DNA of 24,333 nt from a virus, in IMG/VR virus record IMGVR_UViG_3300025072_000046, positions 1-24,333 of that record. One strand, written 5' to 3'. A program made the translations under genes and the position numbers. The notes under the pieces were generated by a model. It made no database searches and was not told the DNA's origin. It saw nothing but the letters and a program-made list of their open reading frames with translations. Shown one piece after another: positions 2,990 to 19,306 of this stretch. The first letter of the stretch is position 1, and the number at the start of each line of letters is the position of its first letter.

Positions 2990-3478
2990 ATGGCTGACTT
3001 ATTAATGAAAATGCCCATACCGTATGAACCTAAAAAGAAAAATAGGTTTATCTTAAGATTCCCTTCTTCATTGGGCATTAATGAGTGGTATGTGGAAAGT
3101 ACTTCGAGACCTGCTGTTAACATTAATCCAGTAGAAATCCCTTTCTTAAACACTTCTACATATGTGGCAGGTAGATTTACATGGAACACTATTAGTGTGA
3201 CATTTAGAGACCCTATAGGGCCATCAGCAGCACAAGCTCTAATGGAGTGGGTAAGATTACACGCAGAATCAGTAACAGGTAGAATGGGTTACGCTGCGGG
3301 TTATAAAAAAGACATTGATTTAGAGATGCTAGACCCTACTGGTGTGGTTGTAGAAAAGTGGATAATGCAAGGGACATTCTTAACCGATGTAAACTTTGAT
3401 AGTTTGGGTTACAGTGATGATGCAATAGCTAGTATATCAGCAACTCTAAGACCAGATAGATGTATTTTAGTATACTAA
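2990..3478 (+). CDS. gp19: Tail tube protein (T4 gp19-like)
   Basis: A 162-residue protein, close to the 163 residues of T4 gp19, which forms the hexameric rings of the inner tail tube. Recognisable gp19-type features are the N-terminal KKNRFILRFP strand, the membrane- and cell-independent beta-barrel pattern, the SVTFRDPIGPSAAQALMEW segment near residues 69-87, the LEMLDPTGVVVEKW strand pair, and a C-terminal strand with aspartate- and serine-rich turns (FDSLGYSDD). The start ATG follows the A-rich leader AAAAAAAACTAAC. The gene is expressed alone: a late-type motif lies upstream, and a strong terminator follows 21 nt after the stop. This suits the high copy number needed for tube protein. 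Confidence in the family is high. Confidence 0.92.
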   Translation: MADLLMKMPIPYEPKKKNRFILRFPSSLGINEWYVESTSRPAVNINPVEIPFLNTSTYVAGRFTWNTISVTFRDPIGPSAAQALMEWVRLHAESVTGRMGYAAGYKKDIDLEMLDPTGVVVEKWIMQGTFLTDVNFDSLGYSDDAIASISATLRPDRCILVY

Positions 3479-3499
3479 TAGTATAAACATATTAAGATT

Positions 3500-3527
3500 A
3501 AGACCCACACTAAGTTGTGGGTCTTTT
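3500..3527. terminator. Intrinsic terminator between convergent genes
   Basis: AAGACCCAC (3500-3508) pairs perfectly with GTGGGTCTT (3517-3525), with A3509-T3516 adding a tenth pair. The loop has 6 nt and a T-rich tail follows on the plus strand. It ends the tail tube transcript. The stop codon of the minus-strand 3510-4139 gene lies in its loop (3510-3512). The minus-strand tail is less T-rich, so termination there would be weaker. Confidence 0.85.
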
Positions 3528-4139
3528 ATTTAATGGGGCTAAATTTTTATTTTTGGGATAAGGTTCTTCTCCCCATAAACAGTTTAATGTTTTATCGAAC
3601 ACTAGTAGGTATCGGTGTTTACGGTCACGAGCTCTCCACTTTCCTTTTTTTCCTTTCACGGGACCTCTTTGGTGTTTAACAAAAGAACCATCCTCCATTT
3701 CGAACCAAAAATCCTTTTTAAATGAAGTTAAACCGTAGTATTTGAAATTTGTCGCTTGATATATGAATCCCGTATGTAACGACGAATCAGCGTAGGATAA
3801 AATAGACTTTACCTCAGTTTTTTTTCTTAACAACTTAATTGATTTGGAAACAAACCAAGATAAAACATTTTTTTCTTTAATTGTGGGGCTAAGGCACAAT
3901 CTACCTAACTCATAAACACCCCCCTGTTCATCTCTCTTTAACCCAAAACAACCCTTTAATGTCTCAGGTACGGAAGGGGAGTGAAAGATGCAGACACCAA
4001 CCAATTCAGAGTCTTTATATAACCCAAAATTAAATCCACTTCTAAATCCTTTACTTTGTTTGTTTAAATAATGATATTGTGAAAGTATGGACTTACACAA
4101 ATCTTTACTTATCATTTGTATGTTATAGGTTTTATCCAT
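3510..4139 (-). CDS. Mom-like DNA modification protein (GNAT-type)
   Basis: A 209-residue protein with the signature of the phage Mu Mom family. Features are the YHYLN segment near residue 24, an ELVGVCIFHSP strand near 45-55, the core YELGRLCLSP near 85, a helix following NVLSWFVSKSI, and the family hallmark SYADSSLHTGFIYQATNF near 115-132. It ends with a basic KHRYL tail, also common in the family. Mu Mom has a GNAT fold and modifies adenine in phage DNA to a carbamoylmethyl derivative, which blocks restriction enzymes; the same role is inferred here. The gene is an insertion against the direction of the tail genes and has its own host-type promoter. A GNAT enzyme acting on another substrate is the alternative. 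Confidence 0.82.
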   Translation of the reverse strand: MDKTYNIQMISKDLCKSILSQYHYLNKQSKGFRSGFNFGLYKDSELVGVCIFHSPSVPETLKGCFGLKRDEQGGVYELGRLCLSPTIKEKNVLSWFVSKSIKLLRKKTEVKSILSYADSSLHTGFIYQATNFKYYGLTSFKKDFWFEMEDGSFVKHQRGPVKGKKGKWRARDRKHRYLLVFDKTLNCLWGEEPYPKNKNLAPLNKRPTT

Positions 4140-4153
4140 TATGATAATTATAG

Positions 4154-4188
4154 CAAAAATAAATTAAAAAGTACATAAAATAAACAAA
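4154..4188 (-). promoter_or_regulatory. Host-type promoter for the Mom-like gene
   Basis: Read on the minus strand: TTTG (4185-4188), a 23-nt spacer, then TATTTTTG (4154-4161), matching TAnnTTTG. The Mom-like ATG at 4139 is 14 nt further. The -33 element overlaps the ATG of the divergent 4188 gene. Confidence 0.6.
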
Positions 4189-4964
4189 TGGACCCAAGAG
4201 AATACTCAGACCCAACCCAAACGAACATACCATATGATGTGGTTCCTCTCCCGTCTAAAGGAATGTTCTACCAGAATAAGTTAGAGTCTGTAAAGGTAAC
4301 ATATTTAACCGCATCAGACGAAAACCTTCTCAGTTCTCCTAATATAGTAGAAAGTGGAAACATAATAGACGAATTATTAAGAAGAAAGATTTTAGGAAGT
4401 GAGGTGAATATTACAGAAATGTTAGAATGTGATAAACAAGCGGTTCTAATATTTTTACGTAACACTGCTTTCGGAGCGACATATGAGTTTACACTAACTG
4501 ACCCCAAAACAAAAGAATCCTTTAACCACACACACGATTTAAGTAGTGTTAGTATGAAAGAGTTTAATTTAATAGCGGACGAAAAAGGAGAATTTTCCTA
4601 CTCCCTACCCATAACTAAAAAAATAGTTAAATTTAAATTTTTAAGTTCTACACAAGAAACGGAACTATCAAACATAGACTCACAATATGAAGGTAGAATT
4701 TCACCTAAAGTTACAAGAAGACTGGAATATCTTATACAAGAGATAGAAGGTGAAAGAGACAAAGGTAATTTAGCACAAATGATTCAATCAATGCCAATAA
4801 AAGATTCTCAGGGGTTTAGAAACTACGTTAAAGACAACGAACCTGGGTTGGATTTAAAAGTAACAGTAAGGGCACCGTCAGGAGAAGAGGTCACAACTTC
4901 GGTTGTGCTTGGTGCCCATTTTTTTCGTCCTTTCTTCGGAATACAGGCAGGGCGTGCTGGATGA
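4188..4964 (+). CDS. gp26: Baseplate hub assembly protein, gp26-like (upstream frame)
   Basis: A 258-residue product of the zero frame. Features typical of T4-type gp26-like baseplate assembly proteins are the N-terminal PLPSKGMFY motif near residues 21-29, the VTYLTASDENLL segment, a D-rich LECDKQAVLIFLRNTAFGATYEF segment near 84-106, and a C-terminal LGAHFF that resembles the FF-ending tail of the family. T4 gp26 is an assembly factor for the central baseplate hub. No TATTTAT or host-type promoter is visible in the 48 bp upstream, although the terminator at 3500-3527 should stop read-through from the tail tube gene. The last 12 residues after FF are encoded in the overlap with a second frame, and a hairpin plus T7 run precedes them, so two products are likely: this short form and a fusion of about 310 residues. 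Confidence 0.8.
   Translation: MDPREYSDPTQTNIPYDVVPLPSKGMFYQNKLESVKVTYLTASDENLLSSPNIVESGNIIDELLRRKILGSEVNITEMLECDKQAVLIFLRNTAFGATYEFTLTDPKTKESFNHTHDLSSVSMKEFNLIADEKGEFSYSLPITKKIVKFKFLSSTQETELSNIDSQYEGRISPKVTRRLEYLIQEIEGERDKGNLAQMIQSMPIKDSQGFRNYVKDNEPGLDLKVTVRAPSGEEVTTSVVLGAHFFRPFFGIQAGRAG
4870..4925 (+). promoter_or_regulatory. UUCG-capped hairpin plus T7 run: candidate frame-change element
   Basis: An outer perfect 7-bp stem (GGGCACC 4870-4876 with GGTGCCC 4911-4917) encloses an inner perfect 6-bp stem (CACAAC 4892-4897 with GTTGTG 4902-4907) capped by the very stable C(UUCG)G tetraloop. One A and then seven T follow (4919-4925). It looks like an intrinsic terminator, yet it lies inside the gp26-like coding region and exactly where the reading must shift by +1 (or -2) to enter the downstream frame. 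It may act by ribosomal frameshifting or by hairpin-stimulated transcriptional slippage (T7 to T6). Confidence 0.65.
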
Positions 4965-5121
4965 AATCTATTATCTAGTAAAATTCGCAAATTTTAATCA
5001 CAAAGACTTAACAAATATGCCTGTTTATGAACGTAGGTATTATCTTAGTAAACTTATAGAAGAGTTTGACAAGAAAAAAGAAGCTGCAGAAAAACAAAAG
5101 AACAAGTCTGGAGGATTTTAA
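4903..5121 (+). CDS. Downstream frame, probably expressed as a fusion to the gp26-like protein
   Basis: This frame is open from 4870 (after a TAA at 4867) to 5121. Its only possible early starts are TTG 4903 or GTG 4912; the first in-frame ATG is at 5017, which would remove most of the protein. The encoded segment (EYRQGVLDEIYYL, NMPVYERRYYLSKL, then a charged Lys/Glu tail) looks like real protein: a helical domain resembling the small gp51-like or tail-assembly proteins found beside gp26 in T4-like phages. If reading shifts +1 after TTT TTT at 4920-4925, residues 1-246 of the gp26-like protein join VLSSEYRQG and about 60 more residues. Alternatives are independent TTG initiation, or an extra T in the assembled sequence (T6 would give one continuous gene). 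Confidence 0.7.
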   Translation: MCLVPIFFVLSSEYRQGVLDEIYYLVKFANFNHKDLTNMPVYERRYYLSKLIEEFDKKKEAAEKQKNKSGGF

Positions 5122-5155: not shown

Positions 5156-7219
5156 ATGGGACCACTAGATTTTACTAAAGCGTGGAAGAACTTAACTAAC
5201 GCTGAACGAACGAGCTTCGGTGGGACGGAAGCTGAATATATCAAAAATCAGAAAACACTCAAAAGTACTCAGTCTAAGTCCACCCAATCAAACGATAATC
5301 TAGCTGAAGGCCAAAACAAACTTAGTGGTATACTTAATAAAAATCTAGGACTATGGATTGACCTAAAAGATTCTATAGTAGGTGCCGAAGGTGCTCAATC
5401 TACCCTTAATAGTGTTACAAATATTGCGGTCGCTGCCCTAGAAAGAGAACAAAAAATACGTACTGAAATAGTTCAAGAGTTAGGGCAGGTGGGTGCCCTC
5501 CAACAAATGCAAAATGAAAATATTTTTCAAGCTTCAATAGAAGCTGAAAGATATGGTGTTACGTTAGACGAAGTATTAACCACAGTATCATCCCTAGCTC
5601 AACAAATGGGGAGAAATATGTTTATATCTGATGACGACATCGCTAGAGTAGCCATTTTTCAAAAAGCTATGGGTCTTACCAGTTCTGAAGCTGCAAATAT
5701 CTCTAAGTATTTCGACCAAATGGGATTCTCGATAGGAGAATCTATAGACAAGGGCAATGAAATGGCCACAGTTGCAAGACAGATGGGTGTTAATGTGGGT
5801 GATTTTATGAGTACAGTTTCATCTAATATGAAATTAATGAATACCTACAATTTTGCAGATGGTGTACAAGGGTTTGCAAAAATGGCCGCTCAAGCACAAA
5901 AATTAGGTATTAGTATGGAGACTACAGCTGCCCTTGCAGAAAAAGTAATGGACCCAGAAGGAGCTATAGAATTAGCGGCAAACTTACAAGTAATTGGTGG
6001 TGCTGTTGGAGACTTAGCGGACCCATTTAAAATGATGTACATGGCGACCAACGATTTAGCTGGTTTACAAGATTCCTTAGTACAGGCAGGACAAGAACTT
6101 GCGATGTTTAATGAAGAGACGGGTGAAATATCGTTTCCTCCGACTGCTCAGAGACAATTACGTGCTATGGCAGATGCTTTAGGTATGAATAAAGAGGAGT
6201 TTGCTTCGATGATTAAACTCCAAACAAAGTTTAAGTCAATGCAAAACCAATTCTCTTTTGAATTAGAAGGAAGAGAAGACATGCAGGAGTTTGTTACTAG
6301 TATGGCCAGTTTAAATCAACAAACTGGTAAATATGAAATTAAAGTTCCTGGTTTAGATGACGCAGTCGAAATAGAAGACCTAACATCTAAACAACTAGAC
6401 GCTTTAAAAGAAGTTCAAGACCAACAACAAATGACTGAAAAAGAGTTGATGGCGGAACAAACAGGTGTGTTAAAAAGCATTGAGAATAACACCAACGCTC
6501 TAAATACCGCATTATTGGGGGGTGTGATAGAAGGTTTAGATTTAAGTAAGGTTTCCGTAGACCTGAGTCAAGCTATTAATAAAGCTTTTAGTAGTGATGA
6601 ATTAGGTAAAATTAGTGATAATCTTGCAGGATTACTATCAAGTGGTATGGAAAATGTGTTTGGTACTGAAATGTCTAACATTACAGGAATGATTGGTGAG
6701 GGTGGTAATGTTATGCAAGCTCTCATAGGCACCGCTATGGGTGGAACAGGGGACATAATGGAATTAATGACCGAAGCAAGTAAAAAAGATTTTGTGGTAC
6801 AACAAGGATATTTTAAGATAAGTGAAGTAAAAGGGAAAGATGTAAATGATTTTAGTTTAGACCCTGGCAACACAAGAGCTGTTCTAACAGCAGATAGTGG
6901 ATTTTTAATACCTTCAGTAAACGATACCGTAAGTGGTGTTGATTTAACCGCAGGAGCAAAAGGAGCAAATTTAGGTTCCTTAGTTAGTGGTGGTGGAAGT
7001 GTTCCAGAAAAAACAATAAAAGTAGAGTTTACTGGAATACCCTCCAGAATCCCGATTGAATTAAACGGTAAAAATATGGGAGACTTTAATTGGAAAGGTC
7101 TAATAGGTGACAACCTATTCATGCAAAACTTAAAATCACAGTTAATAGAAACTAACCTAACTACCGCTTCAGGTATGAATAATGAAAGAGAGTTAGCTAG
7201 GTATGATAGTATGGTATAA
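5156..7219 (+). CDS. Tail tape measure / baseplate hub protein (gp29-like position)
   Basis: A 687-residue, largely helical protein rich in Ala, Gln, Met and Leu, without cysteine. It lies directly after the gp26-like gene, as the tape measure gene 29 does in the T4 hub gene cluster. The N-terminal third (about 60-130) is coiled-coil-like; a middle region has repeated helical segments such as AAQAQKLGISMETTAALAEK and ANLQVIGGAVGDLADP. The C-terminal part (about 580-670) becomes Gly- and beta-rich (TIKVEFTGIPSRIPIELNG), plausibly the end held in the hub. T4 gp29 has 590 residues. At roughly 0.15 nm per residue, 687 residues would suggest a tail of about 100 nm, which is inference. No membrane-spanning stretch is obvious. 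The call rests on position, length and composition. Confidence 0.75.
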   Translation: MGPLDFTKAWKNLTNAERTSFGGTEAEYIKNQKTLKSTQSKSTQSNDNLAEGQNKLSGILNKNLGLWIDLKDSIVGAEGAQSTLNSVTNIAVAALEREQKIRTEIVQELGQVGALQQMQNENIFQASIEAERYGVTLDEVLTTVSSLAQQMGRNMFISDDDIARVAIFQKAMGLTSSEAANISKYFDQMGFSIGESIDKGNEMATVARQMGVNVGDFMSTVSSNMKLMNTYNFADGVQGFAKMAAQAQKLGISMETTAALAEKVMDPEGAIELAANLQVIGGAVGDLADPFKMMYMATNDLAGLQDSLVQAGQELAMFNEETGEISFPPTAQRQLRAMADALGMNKEEFASMIKLQTKFKSMQNQFSFELEGREDMQEFVTSMASLNQQTGKYEIKVPGLDDAVEIEDLTSKQLDALKEVQDQQQMTEKELMAEQTGVLKSIENNTNALNTALLGGVIEGLDLSKVSVDLSQAINKAFSSDELGKISDNLAGLLSSGMENVFGTEMSNITGMIGEGGNVMQALIGTAMGGTGDIMELMTEASKKDFVVQQGYFKISEVKGKDVNDFSLDPGNTRAVLTADSGFLIPSVNDTVSGVDLTAGAKGANLGSLVSGGGSVPEKTIKVEFTGIPSRIPIELNGKNMGDFNWKGLIGDNLFMQNLKSQLIETNLTTASGMNNERELARYDSMV

Positions 7220-12889: not shown

Positions 12890-15800
12890 ATGGCAAATGA
12901 AATTAGTAATGGTGACAACGTCTTAGTAGAATTTTCCGAGAACAACATCCTGTTGGTTGACCCAAGTAGAGTTTTTGAGGGAGGTAAAGTAAAGGATAGG
13001 TTAGTCGACTCAGAGAACCTAATTATATACGCTAGTTTAAAAGCCAGAGTAGTTCCCCGTAGTAAACTTATTGCGGGAGCAGGAGTAGATAACCCAACAC
13101 CAGAAGCTTTTGTCGATGTATTCGAAGGAGACATCAATTTTTTAAAACCAGAAGGTAAGAGTTATTATACCAGTGATTGGACCGACACTCAAACGGGAAA
13201 GGGATTTGCTACCGCAGGAGGTGCGTTAAACCAAAGAGTTCAAAACACGGTAACAGACCCACGAACTGGACAAGTGAGGGTGAGTGAGGAAATTAGTAAT
13301 AGGTTAGATTCGGAAGGTTTTGGAATTAATAATATATCTGTTACTTTAAATAGAGCCTTTACCCCGATTGTAAATATTACATTTACTGACGTTAGAGGAC
13401 AAACATTGTTCGAACAAGGCCCTAATTCACCCTATGCTGCGTTTTTCCAATTACCTTACCCCCTATTTAAATTAAAGTTAAAAGGGTATTATGGTAAAGC
13501 GGTAGAGTACCAACTCATGCTAGAAAAATTTAATGCGTCTTTTGATGCGTCTACAGGAAATTATAATGTTACGTGTAACTTTAAAGGTAGGGTTACAGCA
13601 TTGCTGGCTGACATCAACCTACAAGAAATGAGGGTGGCACCATATATGTTTTCGAGGTCTTATGAGGTAGATAATGGTGAAGACGAAAAAACTTCATTTT
13701 TCACTAGTAGAGGTAGACAAACTTTGAGTCAAGTATATGAAGCGTACAAGGCTAAAGGTCTTATCGATAATCGATTACCGGACCTAACGATTGACGATTT
13801 AATTGATAGGATTAAAGAGTTAGAAACCGATATAGAAAAAAAATTAAAAAGTTATAACTTAAATGCTTTAGATGATATTGAAAAATATGACAAATATAGT
13901 ACTGGATACCGAAATAAAATATTGGCAAGTGGAGGTTGGAGAGCCACATATATAGATACAGACATAAACTCGATTACGGGACCTCAGGTAGATGTAAAAA
14001 CTGATAAAGTTTATTACATGTTTAAAAAGGTATATAGGGATAATCCCGTAAAACAAAAAGACGCTTTTGAAAATTTAAAAAAGAGGATAAAAGAAGGTAA
14101 TGAGGGTCTTTTAGGTAATAAAACGTTTGGTACGGGGGGTGAACAAGCTATCCCCGTAGACATCAGGTATGAAGATTTATTGGCCGCTCCTCCGACAGGA
14201 TTTGAAGATAGCACTAATAGCTGGTTTACTTTTGAGATATTCGAAGAGAAAATAGGGAAAATAATTACCGTGTTCAACACTAAAAGAACCGAGATAGAAA
14301 AAACTTTAACTGCCGCGGTAAACACTGTAGTAGTAGAGTCACTAGGTTTCAACCCCACAGTAAGAAACATATTTGCTATATTTATTTCTCACGCGGATAC
14401 CTTTCTAAGGTTGATGGACGAAACCCACAACCAAGCCTTTGCTGTTAGAGAAGACCCTAACAGGTTAAACTCGATTAATGGTACGGGTAGCCCCAGTAGT
14501 ACTGATGAGGTTGTTATGGTATATCCCTGGCCTCATTACTACCTAGAAGAAACGGACGAAAACGGACCACAATATGTTAGCACTTACCCTGGGTCTACTA
14601 ATGTACTTGGACAAACTAAGGCTTACGACGCCACCCTTTGGCCTGAAGTTAACTTTGTGGAGGAATTTTTTAAAGCACAAGTAATAGGTAATGTGGATAG
14701 TAAACCCGAGTTTGCGTTAAATACCGTTGGTGGAAATTGGGTGCCTATCACCTCATTTGAGTTAGGAGAAGAACAGGTTTACATTAATAAATCTATAGTA
14801 CCATTCAACTATGAAATATGGGACCGTTCCATAGTCTTTTCATGTTTTTCTGGATTGTCTACACGACTTAAAGAAAACGTGGCAAAAAATACATTTTATG
14901 AACTAGCTAAGGTAGAAGCCGCTAACATCAAAGAGTACTTAACTGGGTTATTAGACCTTAACGAATTATTGAAAAACCAAACTTTCAACTACAATACGTT
15001 TTTAACTTACTTAAAAGAAATTTCACCCCTAAATAACTACCAACTACTAATTAGGGACCAATTTAATACACCATATATAAGACTTAAAAGTAATAGCGGG
15101 AGATTTACTCTAACACCCTTTAACACTTTTAAATCACTAACATACCAACTAAATAACGGGGAAATAGAGAGTTCTTTATCTACGTTAGATAATGTTTTGT
15201 CTTCTGGAAATGTTAGGGATAATAACATCTTGGAGACATTTCCATTTTCTCATTTTGTTTCAAACGACCCAAACACTTCTTGGACAGTAAATAATTTAGC
15301 TGCGGGACCACAAATATCTAGTTATGAGTCTTTAAATAGTATACAACAAAGTCTAGCATATCAACAAGACCAAAAAGTATTCGCTTCTATAATACCGGAC
15401 AATACCACATCTTCGGTATTGGAAGATATTCAATTTTATACTGACGCGGATTGGGCGTCTAAAACAGCTATAACAGATTTAGCGACTAAAATTGATACTA
15501 GATTTATCAATAATCAAAACACTAGAAATTCTTGGGAGGTTTTTTATGAAAAAGTACAACTCCAAACAGACAGTAGTTATGTGTGTAATCAAAATTTAGT
15601 CACAACAGAGGGAGACCTAGATTATGGAGATAATTATGAGGGGGAAATCTTCTCTAAACAAATTACTTCATTGTTGAATACCCCATACTTTATTAATAGT
15701 ATGGTCGAGGGTGTAGATAACGAGATTAATAATATTGACTCACCTTATAAGTCAGCCGCTTACCTATTCTTACATTCTTTACCCCTACCTACCTTAAGGG

Positions 15801-18800
15801 AAAAAACATTACTATCTAATCAGTCTACGTATAATTTATATGGTGACTATATCGCTAAAACTCTGAACCAGGTGTCCGCGACACATCCATTACCTAGTGC
15901 TTGGATTTTAAAATATGGGGCAATTTGGCACAGATATAAGGAGTTCATTAATAATAATACGGACTTTTTAACTTCGGTATGGACAGATTTCGACGCTAAC
16001 ACATATTTTAACAATGGTAGTGGTTTGGTGTACACATATGATTTAAATGTGGGTCCTAATAACAATTTAATGAGTTTCGGAGGACAGTGGTCCCCTACCC
16101 CCACGATGGACCAACTTAATTTAGGTTTTTACCCTGAACTAAACAACTATATTTATTATTTCGTTACTGGGGAGTTATTATATGACGGATTTAACATTAG
16201 TGGGTTCCCCATAACAGATAACCAAGTCAACCAACTTATAACCCAAGAAGCTTTATATTTAAAGAATGCGGAAGAATTAACCATAACCTCCTTAACGACG
16301 GACCCAATACAGACCAGAGCAAATTTTTGGTTTAACTACTACGATTTAACTATGGAGTCTTATTTAAGTGGTTATACTACGGAACAATATCTATTATTTC
16401 CGTGTGAAGGTGGAATGAAGAAATCCCAAGTGGAATTTGAAGTTAGTTCACCATATTCCTTAACTAATAACCCCAATGTAACTAATGGAGCGGCACGGCT
16501 TGTCTGGTCACTTTCTAACTACGGATATTTTGAACACCATCAGAACACTTTTCCACAACCAGACCAGTACCTAAAGAAAATAATGGTAGACCAAGAAGAA
16601 CAACTTTCTTTTAACATTACCAATAATGAAGAATATGCGTCTATTGAAGAATTATTTGACATATTTAGTCCCGAAATTTTAGATACGTTTGAAGGGTACT
16701 TCTTAAATTTTAGTGAGACGTTTAATGTTGACCCCCCCATTGCTTACGAAAAAGAAGACATAATGAGTCTAAATTTCCAACAGATAGTTAGGGAATTCTT
16801 AAAAATAGACCAAAATAAGGTTAACGATAGTCAAAGCAATACACAGTTAAGTTACAATTTAGGACAGACACAATTAAATAAAATTAATTCTACACTTAGA
16901 GAATTTCTAACCCACCAAAAGGCTTTTAATTTTTATAATCCTAAAGATATTAATCTAGAAGTGTTTAGAAGTTTGACACCTTCTTCAGGAGCAACACCAA
17001 CGGTCTCGTTTGGTAGGTATACGGGGAACTTACCACCAGATATAAGTTTAATTGATTCAACCACACTATATCTTGATGAATGGAAAGAATTAAGGAAACA
17101 GGTGGGGTTCTACACTAACTCACTCTCATCTGCTTACACATTAAACTTAATCTATAATGATAGTGGAAATTATGTTACTGAATTTTTTCGTGAGCTTAAT
17201 ATTGAGTTTAACGTACCTAATATAAAATTGTTAAGGAAAATAATTAGAATGTATGTGACCGTTAGAATTGATGCGGGGGCTACCGAGAATATTGACAATG
17301 TAGAATTCTTACAAAGAATAAAAACTGAAGTTGTAGAATCTTGGGAATTCTCCCAGTTCGATTTCCTTAACCAACTATTCATACAACTTAAGACGGTATT
17401 ACCACAGACAGCTGAAACTCAGATAGAGGAATTTACTGACAATTCCACTTATAATAGTGACGAAAATAAACTTGAACAATATCAAGTATTTAAGACTCTA
17501 AACGATAAGTGGATTTCAGGTGAGGAGTTTAGTAATAAATACCTATTTGAAGATTTTTTATTTTATGATGTGGCTAATAGAGATATTGGGGACAAAGCAA
17601 TAATAACCACGGATGCCATTAAAAGTTTCGGACACATTAATAACACCAATAAAAGTTTATTAACTATAATCGGTTCTTTACTACAAGGTAATTTCTTTAA
17701 CTTTATGGGGATGCCTTCCTATATTAATTTTTATGGGATGACATCTAATGGGGACACCCCGATACCTAAACTAAGCACACAAGACGAAGCAGACGCACTT
17801 TTTGGTACACATCTAGAAGTTGACACATTAGATTCAGGACCAAAATTTTTATGCCAATATGTTGGCCCACCATCTACACAGTTAGGTGGGGAACTCACCA
17901 AAAAGAGCAAATATGAAAACGATTCATTTATGTTGGGGAGAACCGTCCAAAACCCACTACTTTCTACCGATTATGACCCACAAAAAAATAATAAAGTTGT
18001 GGCGTTTGCCGTAGATTTTGGAATACAAAGTCAAGGTGTATTTAAAGGGATTAGTTTAGACCAAAGTGAATTTAAAAATACTTCCGAATCCTTTGTTGTT
18101 ACAGAGGCTATGGCACAATCCGCTAACGATAAAAGTATAATGACCCAAGGGCTCAGTTTATTTAATATATATAAAAGTCGTTCCTATACGTGTAAGATAG
18201 AAGCGATGGGGAACGTTTGTATCCAACCCACAATGTATTTTGAATTACGACACGTACCTATGTTTAGTGGGCCATACCTTATATTGGATGTAGAACATAA
18301 CATACAACCCAACACTATGACTACTACCTTTACTGGTGTTAGGGTCCCTTTCCACAAAATGCCTGAAATAAGTCAATTGGTGGCTAAGGTAAATCAAACA
18401 TTTTTAAATAAAGTAAGGAAGAAAGTTAAACAAGAAAAAGAAATTGCGAGAAAAGGAGGGTTTGAAGCTGAAAGTGATACTGAACTTGAATCAGTTAAAA
18501 AAGGAAATACTAATTTTATAGGTAGGGACGACGATAAGGTAGATTATATTATCATCCATGTTACAGCGGGTGTAGATTACGGTGCCGACCCTATCAGTAA
18601 CATCAATCAACAACATCTAAATCGTGGATTTGCGGGTATTGGATACCACTATCTAATATCTAGAGGTACCGGAGGTAGTAAACCAGACGGTACATTATAT
18701 GGTGCAAGACCTTATGGTAAGGTTGGAGCACACGTACTCGGACACAATGAAAGGTCAATAAGTGTGAGTATGATTGCTAATTGTGATAAAATGGGGACTT

Positions 18801-19306
18801 ATACTTCAGTTGGAGATTATGCGACAGATAAACAAAAGGATACATTAGAATGGACCTTATTGTATTTGTTATTTAAAGGTGGACTATTTAAAGTCAAGGA
18901 ATCCCAAACGGGCAGGTATGGGGTAATAGTTAAAACAGGTTCGGGAGACGAGTTGGTGGAAGACCCCACGGAAATTACAGACAATAATAAAGGGGTGGTC
19001 CCTAATTTATGGAAGAATGTCTTAAAAGGGCATAATAATTTTTCCAATAAGAGATGTCCATGTTTTAGAGTGGAGAGAGAATTGGAGGGTAGATTGGGGG
19101 TAAACCTAAGAAAAAAATTAGCGATAGTGGTAAATGAGTTAAATAGTATTGCACAATTTAACCCATTTAACAGTGATGAAACATCACAAGAAAAAATGAT
19201 AGACATTATAGGTTTAGGTAAAAGAGGAAGTGGTGGTGCTTATGTTCCTAGTCCGTGGGAGACCAACTCGGGACAATTTGGTGGAAACGATTTAGCTATG
19301 AACTAA
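12890..19306 (+). CDS. Giant baseplate hub-like protein with C-terminal T7-lysozyme-type amidase
   Basis: A 2138-residue protein. About 1-260 resembles a gp27-type hub domain (FFQLPYPLFKLKLKGYYGKA, then TGNYNVTCNFKGRV). The middle 1500 residues are rich in N, Y, F and T and unrecognised; about 1750-1830 (KSRSYTCKIEAMGNVCIQP, then FTGVRVP) looks like a second hub-type beta domain. About 1880-2090 is an N-acetylmuramoyl-L-alanine amidase (Amidase_2/PGRP fold). All five T7 lysozyme functional residues have counterparts: zinc ligands H1890 (IIIHVTAG), H2048 (GHNNF) and C2056 (RCPCF), and catalytic Y1919 (GYHYL) and K2054. Spacings H-to-Y (29) and H-to-C (8) equal those of T7 lysozyme (H17, Y46, H122, C130), while the middle is about 50 residues longer. 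I infer that it cuts peptidoglycan during tail penetration, replacing the gp5 lysozyme of T4. The last 50 residues are a Gly/Ser/Asn-rich tail. Confidence 0.82.
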   Translation: MANEISNGDNVLVEFSENNILLVDPSRVFEGGKVKDRLVDSENLIIYASLKARVVPRSKLIAGAGVDNPTPEAFVDVFEGDINFLKPEGKSYYTSDWTDTQTGKGFATAGGALNQRVQNTVTDPRTGQVRVSEEISNRLDSEGFGINNISVTLNRAFTPIVNITFTDVRGQTLFEQGPNSPYAAFFQLPYPLFKLKLKGYYGKAVEYQLMLEKFNASFDASTGNYNVTCNFKGRVTALLADINLQEMRVAPYMFSRSYEVDNGEDEKTSFFTSRGRQTLSQVYEAYKAKGLIDNRLPDLTIDDLIDRIKELETDIEKKLKSYNLNALDDIEKYDKYSTGYRNKILASGGWRATYIDTDINSITGPQVDVKTDKVYYMFKKVYRDNPVKQKDAFENLKKRIKEGNEGLLGNKTFGTGGEQAIPVDIRYEDLLAAPPTGFEDSTNSWFTFEIFEEKIGKIITVFNTKRTEIEKTLTAAVNTVVVESLGFNPTVRNIFAIFISHADTFLRLMDETHNQAFAVREDPNRLNSINGTGSPSSTDEVVMVYPWPHYYLEETDENGPQYVSTYPGSTNVLGQTKAYDATLWPEVNFVEEFFKAQVIGNVDSKPEFALNTVGGNWVPITSFELGEEQVYINKSIVPFNYEIWDRSIVFSCFSGLSTRLKENVAKNTFYELAKVEAANIKEYLTGLLDLNELLKNQTFNYNTFLTYLKEISPLNNYQLLIRDQFNTPYIRLKSNSGRFTLTPFNTFKSLTYQLNNGEIESSLSTLDNVLSSGNVRDNNILETFPFSHFVSNDPNTSWTVNNLAAGPQISSYESLNSIQQSLAYQQDQKVFASIIPDNTTSSVLEDIQFYTDADWASKTAITDLATKIDTRFINNQNTRNSWEVFYEKVQLQTDSSYVCNQNLVTTEGDLDYGDNYEGEIFSKQITSLLNTPYFINSMVEGVDNEINNIDSPYKSAAYLFLHSLPLPTLREKTLLSNQSTYNLYGDYIAKTLNQVSATHPLPSAWILKYGAIWHRYKEFINNNTDFLTSVWTDFDANTYFNNGSGLVYTYDLNVGPNNNLMSFGGQWSPTPTMDQLNLGFYPELNNYIYYFVTGELLYDGFNISGFPITDNQVNQLITQEALYLKNAEELTITSLTTDPIQTRANFWFNYYDLTMESYLSGYTTEQYLLFPCEGGMKKSQVEFEVSSPYSLTNNPNVTNGAARLVWSLSNYGYFEHHQNTFPQPDQYLKKIMVDQEEQLSFNITNNEEYASIEELFDIFSPEILDTFEGYFLNFSETFNVDPPIAYEKEDIMSLNFQQIVREFLKIDQNKVNDSQSNTQLSYNLGQTQLNKINSTLREFLTHQKAFNFYNPKDINLEVFRSLTPSSGATPTVSFGRYTGNLPPDISLIDSTTLYLDEWKELRKQVGFYTNSLSSAYTLNLIYNDSGNYVTEFFRELNIEFNVPNIKLLRKIIRMYVTVRIDAGATENIDNVEFLQRIKTEVVESWEFSQFDFLNQLFIQLKTVLPQTAETQIEEFTDNSTYNSDENKLEQYQVFKTLNDKWISGEEFSNKYLFEDFLFYDVANRDIGDKAIITTDAIKSFGHINNTNKSLLTIIGSLLQGNFFNFMGMPSYINFYGMTSNGDTPIPKLSTQDEADALFGTHLEVDTLDSGPKFLCQYVGPPSTQLGGELTKKSKYENDSFMLGRTVQNPLLSTDYDPQKNNKVVAFAVDFGIQSQGVFKGISLDQSEFKNTSESFVVTEAMAQSANDKSIMTQGLSLFNIYKSRSYTCKIEAMGNVCIQPTMYFELRHVPMFSGPYLILDVEHNIQPNTMTTTFTGVRVPFHKMPEISQLVAKVNQTFLNKVRKKVKQEKEIARKGGFEAESDTELESVKKGNTNFIGRDDDKVDYIIIHVTAGVDYGADPISNINQQHLNRGFAGIGYHYLISRGTGGSKPDGTLYGARPYGKVGAHVLGHNERSISVSMIANCDKMGTYTSVGDYATDKQKDTLEWTLLYLLFKGGLFKVKESQTGRYGVIVKTGSGDELVEDPTEITDNNKGVVPNLWKNVLKGHNNFSNKRCPCFRVERELEGRLGVNLRKKLAIVVNELNSIAQFNPFNSDETSQEKMIDIIGLGKRGSGGAYVPSPWETNSGQFGGNDLAMN

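Follow-up and report, generated by a model that had tools for sequence, protein, structure and literature searches.

Phage lambda makes its tail assembly chaperones gpG and gpGT as a short and a long form with a common N-terminus, by means of a -1 frameshift in a gene placed between the tail tube and the tape measure. A review describes such a frameshift as widely conserved 'except T4' (PMC5009743). T4 carries gp26 and gp51 as two complete paralogous genes, and in cyanophages gp26 is accompanied by a gp51 stub; according to a 26-genome comparison from 2010, cyanophage gp51 has ~20% of the usual length and a similar C-terminus and was viewed as shortened, the word 'frameshift' being absent from the main text (PMC3037559). 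Stable hairpins near the 5' side of a shift site have been linked to the +1 direction (Cho 2013; Huang 2018) in reporters for which hairpins were designed at sites of the Ty1 type and at CUUUGA. The reported effects are stimulation of +1 frameshifting in yeast, with upstream hairpin effects that grow with stability and a -1 shift reduced more at 2 nt than at 5 nt (PMC3639245), and hairpin-driven +1 at CUUUGA in E. coli lysate, only without release factor 2 (PMC6321510). Finally, in the Roseiflexus IS630 element a stem stands directly 5' of a slippery run and the frame change consists of one base lost (Penno 2015, via PMC5009743).

The DNA analysed here, referred to as the window, is a 24,333-base IMG/VR virus record, from whose letters the stems, the run and the frames were read directly. 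We read this locus, from its sequence, as a lambda G/GT-type tail assembly chaperone frameshift in T4-type phages. It is similar to the lambda pair in its predicted short and long forms with a common N-terminus and in its position between tail tube and putative tape measure genes, and differs from it in that the shift would be +1 and not -1 and in the presence of a 5' hairpin. The phrog_150/PF12322 family is common to the window protein, T4 gp26/gp51 and the cyanophage gp26/gp51 stub, although T4 has two genes and cyanophage-type phages a -1 shift. Unlike the designed reporter hairpins, the element in the window is natural and covaries, and unlike in IS630 the run is dispensable across the family. 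The features are as follows:

2990-3478, + strand: tail tube protein gene, upstream (phrog_4542, 1.9e-29)
3510-4139, - strand: Mom-like DNA modification gene, between the tail tube and chaperone genes (PF25680, 5.4e-29; phrog_1384, 3.3e-37)
4188-4964, + strand: zero-frame gene, short form of 258 aa, proposed tail assembly chaperone 'G' (PF12322/phrog_150; relatives)
4870-4876, + strand: 5' arm of the outer stem, GGGCACC (direct reading; covariation in 24 sequences)
4892-4907, + strand: inner hairpin, CACAAC-TTCG-GTTGTG (direct reading; in several relatives an inner stem in another register is drawn)
4911-4917, + strand: 3' arm of the outer stem, GGTGCCC, with 2 nt between its end and the TTT TTT codons (direct reading; covariation)
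4919-4926, + strand: shift site, a T7 run followed by C, read as CAT TTT TTT CGT in the zero frame (direct reading; relatives)
4927-5121, + strand: +1-frame extension, 64 codons and stop, gp51 C-terminal-like 'T' segment (homology, pN/pS)
4188-5121, + strand: predicted fusion product P0001, 310 aa, gp51-like long form, proposed 'GT' (profile match, structure model)
5156-7219, + strand: tape-measure-like gene by position, 687 aa, directly downstream (no convincing family match)

An earlier note on this DNA had described nested stems with a UUCG loop followed by A and T7 inside a gp26-like gene, and direct reading confirmed them: an outer stem of 7 bp (4870-4876 with 4911-4917) and an inner one of 6 bp (4892-4897 with 4902-4907, loop TTCG at 4898-4901), then A at 4918 and the T7 run at 4919-4925. 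The zero frame reads CAT (from 4917) TTT TTT CGT and ends in TGA at 4962-4964; 36 nt (4926-4961) separate the run from this stop, and not 40 as had been stated. The +1 frame is open from 4870 to 5121 with no ATG before 5017, as the note had it; the non-ATG start codons TTG 4903, ahead of the run, and GTG 4954 are also in this frame. Skipping one base after TTT TTT yields ..AHFFVLSSEYRQ.. and a fusion of 310 aa, so that the pair proposed in the note, a short gp26-like protein and a fusion of ~310 residues joined by a one-base frame change at the run, is supported at the sequence level. A -2 shift (AHFFFVLSS) was also considered and set aside; the CTT TGG sites of relatives could not re-pair at -2.

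A first scan of viral contigs gave 19 distinct loci, which further scans and phage records increased to 150 usable ones (numbered with an L below); the best 80 of at least 599 matches to one viral-contig query were taken. T4 and S-PM2-type loci were counted separately, and L002 (match identical to that of L001), L016 and L071 (truncated where their contigs end) and L031 and L035-L037 (re-fetched loci) were left out. Because the same genome occurs twice in some cases (e.g. L013/L119, L015/L118, L026/L158) and the window stands beside near-identical contigs, a separate count was kept of the 100 loci that are distinct over the upstream region and site. Contigs ending within the extension were scored as open to their end (e.g. 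L053, and L127 with 24 codons).

The earlier note had proposed comparing the run, the hairpin and the frame arrangement across relatives, and the latter two turned out to be conserved. Past the site, the +1 frame stays open longer than the third frame in 148 of the 150 loci, with medians of 68 and 16 codons, respectively, counted on open frames whose products are deduced from the genes; two loci depart from this, L028 with an open -1 frame and L097 with two long frames (71 and 76 codons). The zero frame stops 3-25 codons past the site (median 6). A codon able to re-pair forward, UUU or CUU onto UUU/UUC, is present in all 149 loci besides L028, as the second codon in 147 and as the first in L020 and L029. 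Six or more T are found in 96 of the 100 distinct sites, and four of these 100 in the wider family have no such run: L020 (TTT CTA), L021 and L116 (TTT CTT TGG) and L027 (TTC TTT CGT), all with the +1 junction kept. Of the 62 Phe representatives, 61 use TTT as the first codon (42.6 expected), and the zero-frame A-site codon is mostly CGT or TGG. The CUU U slip offered by CTT TGG in L021 and L116 is that of the prfB (release factor 2) +1 site, from which the window differs in that its A site holds no stop codon and no close Shine-Dalgarno sequence was recognised.

Some individual loci depart from this picture. In a 595-kb uncultured phage (LR756511; L028:2501-3271) the frame that stays open at T TTT TTC is the -1 one, even though the locus was found with +1-type queries, which suggests that the direction of the shift can flip. 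The +1 extension of L012 (4677-4874) ends early (..YYLNNLI), ~20 residues shorter than in close relatives, and is a variant or a sequence error.

The downstream frame, which the earlier note had regarded as protein-like, evolves as protein: over codons 11-55 past the shift in 10 loci of the window clade (45 pairs), pN/pS is 0.217 in the +1 frame vs 1.157 and 1.068 in the other two. The short form scores 23.5 bits against PF12322, below the cut-off of 24.5 (relative L018 reaches 50.3 bits), and matches phrog_150 with E 1.4e-7 over profile positions 10-227, while for the fused product the match improves to E 5.7e-10 and extends over positions 10-278 of 282; the extension segment matches phrog_634 (E 0.0037). 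T4 gp26 (208 aa) covers positions 14-235 of the phrog_150 profile and T4 gp51 (249 aa) positions 13-280, the latter also carrying the phrog_634 segment. Since gp26 reaches only position 235 and gp51 continues to 280 with this segment, the two T4 paralogues look like the short and the long form as separate genes, and we infer that they arose through duplication of a frameshifting gene.

The annotation of cyanophage S-PM2 gives gp51 as a stub of 57 aa, whose frame is open back through the last gp26 codons, in -1. With S-PM2 as the only query, 701 phage records show a gp26 match, and nine genomes were read, S-PM2 and eight of the 701: S-PM2, S-SRM01, P-SSM2, P-SSM4, Caulobacter Cr30, Sinorhizobium N3, Aeromonas AS-szw, Vibrio PG216 and Vibrio 1.255.O. 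In all nine, the -1 frame continues for 54-63 codons beyond the stop. The site is U UUU UUC or U UUU UUU in eight, Vibrio 1.255.O being the one without it, and GGAGGG stands 9 nt upstream of the heptamer in four (S-PM2, S-SRM01, P-SSM2 and Cr30). Cyanophage-type gp51 'genes' fall within the -1 extension of gp26 (L160:4182-4361; L168-L175). When profiles were compared with hhalign, with E-values that hold for single comparisons, the +1 extensions matched the -1 stubs (95.0%, E 3.7e-8) and these stubs the C-terminus of T4 gp51 (98.0%, E 2e-13); the direct match of the +1 extensions to the T4 gp51 C-terminus was weaker (59.6%, E 8.9e-5, likewise for a single comparison). The extension is thus homologous to the gp51 C-terminus, linked to it through the cyanophage-type stubs.

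The 54 nt upstream of the site, taken from L001 with the same sequence as the window, fold at -22.8 kcal/mol, where synonymous-codon shuffles average -13.1 (z -2.7, p 0.017). Over 81 nt the excess relative to dinucleotide shuffles was weak (z -1.23, 20 of 200 shuffles as good), and the minimum-energy model retains the outer stem and draws the inner part otherwise. This single-sequence signal is modest and covariation is the stronger evidence. In an alignment of 24 distinct relatives with TTT TTT CGT, gap-free over 66 nt, 87.5% of the outer-stem cells are paired, compared with 37.5-45.2% in slid registers, and 25 cells are doubly changed vs a shuffle mean of 6.7; none of 500 shuffles, which ignore relatedness, reached 25. 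Columns 12 and 51, both synonymous third positions, hold A-U in 17 sequences, C-G in 3, G-C in 2, G-U in 1 and another combination in 1. Two of the five covariation measures fell within the shuffle range (79 and 267 of 500), and the Rfam search returned just two sub-threshold matches. All seven outer pairs form in 9 of the 24 relatives, the outermost in 19 and the inner five in 21 (not in L122, L123 and L147), these five being the only ones shown by the consensus fold. The distance from stem base to TTT TTT, 2 nt in the window and wherever the stem is full-length but as much as 4 nt elsewhere, is for this reason not universal. Across the family, the upstream 54 nt are more stable than synonymous shuffles (mean z -1.00, SE 0.16, 65 representatives), with 26% at p < 0.05. 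Among the run-less relatives, no 5' hairpin excess was detected in L021 (p 0.74) or L116 (p 0.49) and a weak one in L027 (p 0.15).

AlphaFold2 was applied to the fusion, with an alignment that included 34 unchanged translated stretches of relatives. The model reached a mean pLDDT of 91.3 and a pTM of 0.76, lower around the junction (pLDDT 75 for residues 241-250 and 82 for 251-260), and the extension is helical in it (250-266 and 279-307). At E 0.001 or better, 56 viral models match, including baseplate hub proteins, not all 56 being named. Neither the PDB sequence search nor Foldseek against PDB at E 0.001 gave a match, and with VIA-align no solved chain reached Z 5 against the whole model. 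With low-confidence stretches removed, VIA-align ranked first the HK97 tail assembly chaperone 2ob9 (Z 5.5, 78 aligned, 4.1 A) and second YqbN 3klu (Z 5.3, 83 aligned, 3.6 A), presumably a prophage chaperone, both below the level at which the tool is trusted. These matches, including the weak one to the solved HK97 chaperone, do not suffice to claim a shared fold.

Taken as a whole, the long fusion product is well supported by sequence, and we consider it likely that it is made by a ribosomal +1 slip at TTT TTT C, helped by the 5' hairpin, as the gp51-like long form of a G/GT-type chaperone. Most ribosomes would terminate at 4964 and release the 258-aa gp26-like form, while some would slip one base forward, with tRNA-Phe in the P site re-pairing from UUU to UUC on the second TTT, and make the 310-aa form. 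The hairpin, with its base 2 nt before the slip codons, is probably a stimulator: it would fold behind the ribosome, pull on the mRNA and favour a forward slip, in the manner of an internal Shine-Dalgarno duplex at other sites. If lambda gpG/gpGT is a guide, the short form may coat the tape measure protein and the extension may recruit the tail tube protein; in T4, genes 26 and 51 would encode the pair. Counting against a ribosomal slip, the A-site codons CGT and TGG are no known strong pause, and the lysate precedent leaves a gap in the analogy because in the window a sense codon occupies the A site. An internal Shine-Dalgarno sequence was weighed as the stimulator and set aside: although GGAGAAGAGG is part of the outer loop, complementarity does not exceed chance at any of the 17 gene starts inspected.

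The earlier note had proposed a different agent for the same fusion, namely hairpin-driven slippage of the RNA polymerase, in which the nascent hairpin would melt the RNA-DNA hybrid at the U-run and some transcripts would lose one U. Several observations agree with it. The stem base is 1 nt before T7 in the window and at least 2 nt before T6 in relatives, and the review describes for Roseiflexus IS630 an adjacent GCGGGC/GCCCGC stem and one base lost, in the same direction (PMC5009743); since the T-run is under selection, with six or more T in nearly all distinct sites, and the geometry matches that of a known slippage hairpin, slippage is possible in the window clade. The preference for TTT at codon 1 suits polymerase slippage or tandem/E-site effects as well, because TTC would still permit a P-site slip at codon 2. 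T6, however, is short for polymerase slippage. The +1 junction, moreover, persists without the run in L020, L021, L027 and L116; L020 has an adjacent hairpin (p 0.010), yet TTTCTATTC. The -1 sister branch also speaks against slippage, with canonical ribosomal heptamers in eight of the nine genomes read and GGAGGG upstream in four. The four run-less junctions and the U UUU UUY of the -1 branch are the reason why we clearly favour the ribosome, leaving the polymerase as a rather unlikely cause.

Other explanations would do without a frame change or give it a secondary place. It is improbable that the downstream frame is expressed as a separate protein from its own start. Cyanophage gp51 is annotated as a separate short gene, GTG 4954 and ATG 5017 are in frame in the window, and ATG, GTG or TTG occurs within the first 20 +1 codons in 34 of 64 representatives; but these codons hold no ATG in 53 of the 64 and none of the three in 30, the frame remains open upstream across the shift site, the fusion extends the match to a single profile, and T4 gp51 has both parts in one chain. 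The terminator-like shape of the stem, followed by A and T7, could also mean that the hairpin is mainly a partial intrinsic terminator that lowers downstream expression. A terminator scan of the window did not include it among its calls, probably because the outer loop exceeds the length that the scan allows. We hold this very improbable for a hairpin located inside a gene and ahead of a tape-measure-like one, whose register to the shift codons is kept and whose sister sequences have only T6, preceded by GAG in most. As for an error of sequencing or assembly in the run, or a decayed gene, in what would truly be one continuous gene, homopolymers are error-prone, but the T7 or a T6 variant with the same frame offset recurs in many separately assembled contigs and in the isolates RM378, SP-15, Mel-JY01 and LIS04, and the extension is under purifying selection, which leaves this explanation hardly any weight.

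The gene order in the window is tail tube, an inserted Mom-like gene, the proposed chaperone gene and the tape-measure position. In L021 and L029 the gene after the gp26/extension region is annotated as a tape measure; in L171 such a gene comes one position later. Rhodothermus phage RM378 (L025) is an exception: its gp26-like gene has the same C-T7-GG site, and an inverted tail tube gene (3352-3858, - strand) comes next, not the tape measure. A terminator-like hairpin at 3500-3525 lies beside the Mom-like gene of the window. Farther downstream, an ORF of 2138 aa (12890-19306, + strand) has a C-terminal part that is amidase-like by eye.

Shine-Dalgarno complementarity at the 17 gene starts inspected is not above background (mean longest stretch 3.24 vs 3.27) and their leaders are A-rich (57% A in 20 nt). 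These facts, together with the six phage records to which the window protein matched, four of them from Flavobacterium phages, led us to infer a Bacteroidota host as likely, and in such a host the hairpin could take the place of the Shine-Dalgarno duplex that assists the shift at other +1 sites. To the broader proposal we give an even chance: that in Shine-Dalgarno-less (Bacteroidota-type) phages a natural hairpin takes over from this duplex and drives the +1 shift, and that T4 gp51 and gp26 are the same pair after duplication, T4-type phages being no exception to the conserved frameshift.

The general kind of system is already known from lambda G/GT. Among the matches listed, titles and abstracts of the open-licence PMC literature held no description of a gp26-gp51 frameshift, which is no proof of absence. 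As far as this literature goes, what appears to be new is the T4-type version, with a +1 group (at least 599 viral-contig matches to one query), a -1 shift in cyanophage-type phages, a pair divided between two genes in T4 and a 5' hairpin that covaries.

The finding would offer a reason for the truncated look of cyanophage gp51 genes, as these are portrayed in the 26-genome comparison (PMC3037559), and the annotation of public phage genomes may need correcting, given the 701 records with a gp26 match to the S-PM2 query alone. The element would be a case from nature in which a covarying 5' hairpin goes together with +1 frameshifting. If the proposed reading is true, it would also give a role to the essential gp51 of T4, a protein 'of unknown function', as the long form of the pair.
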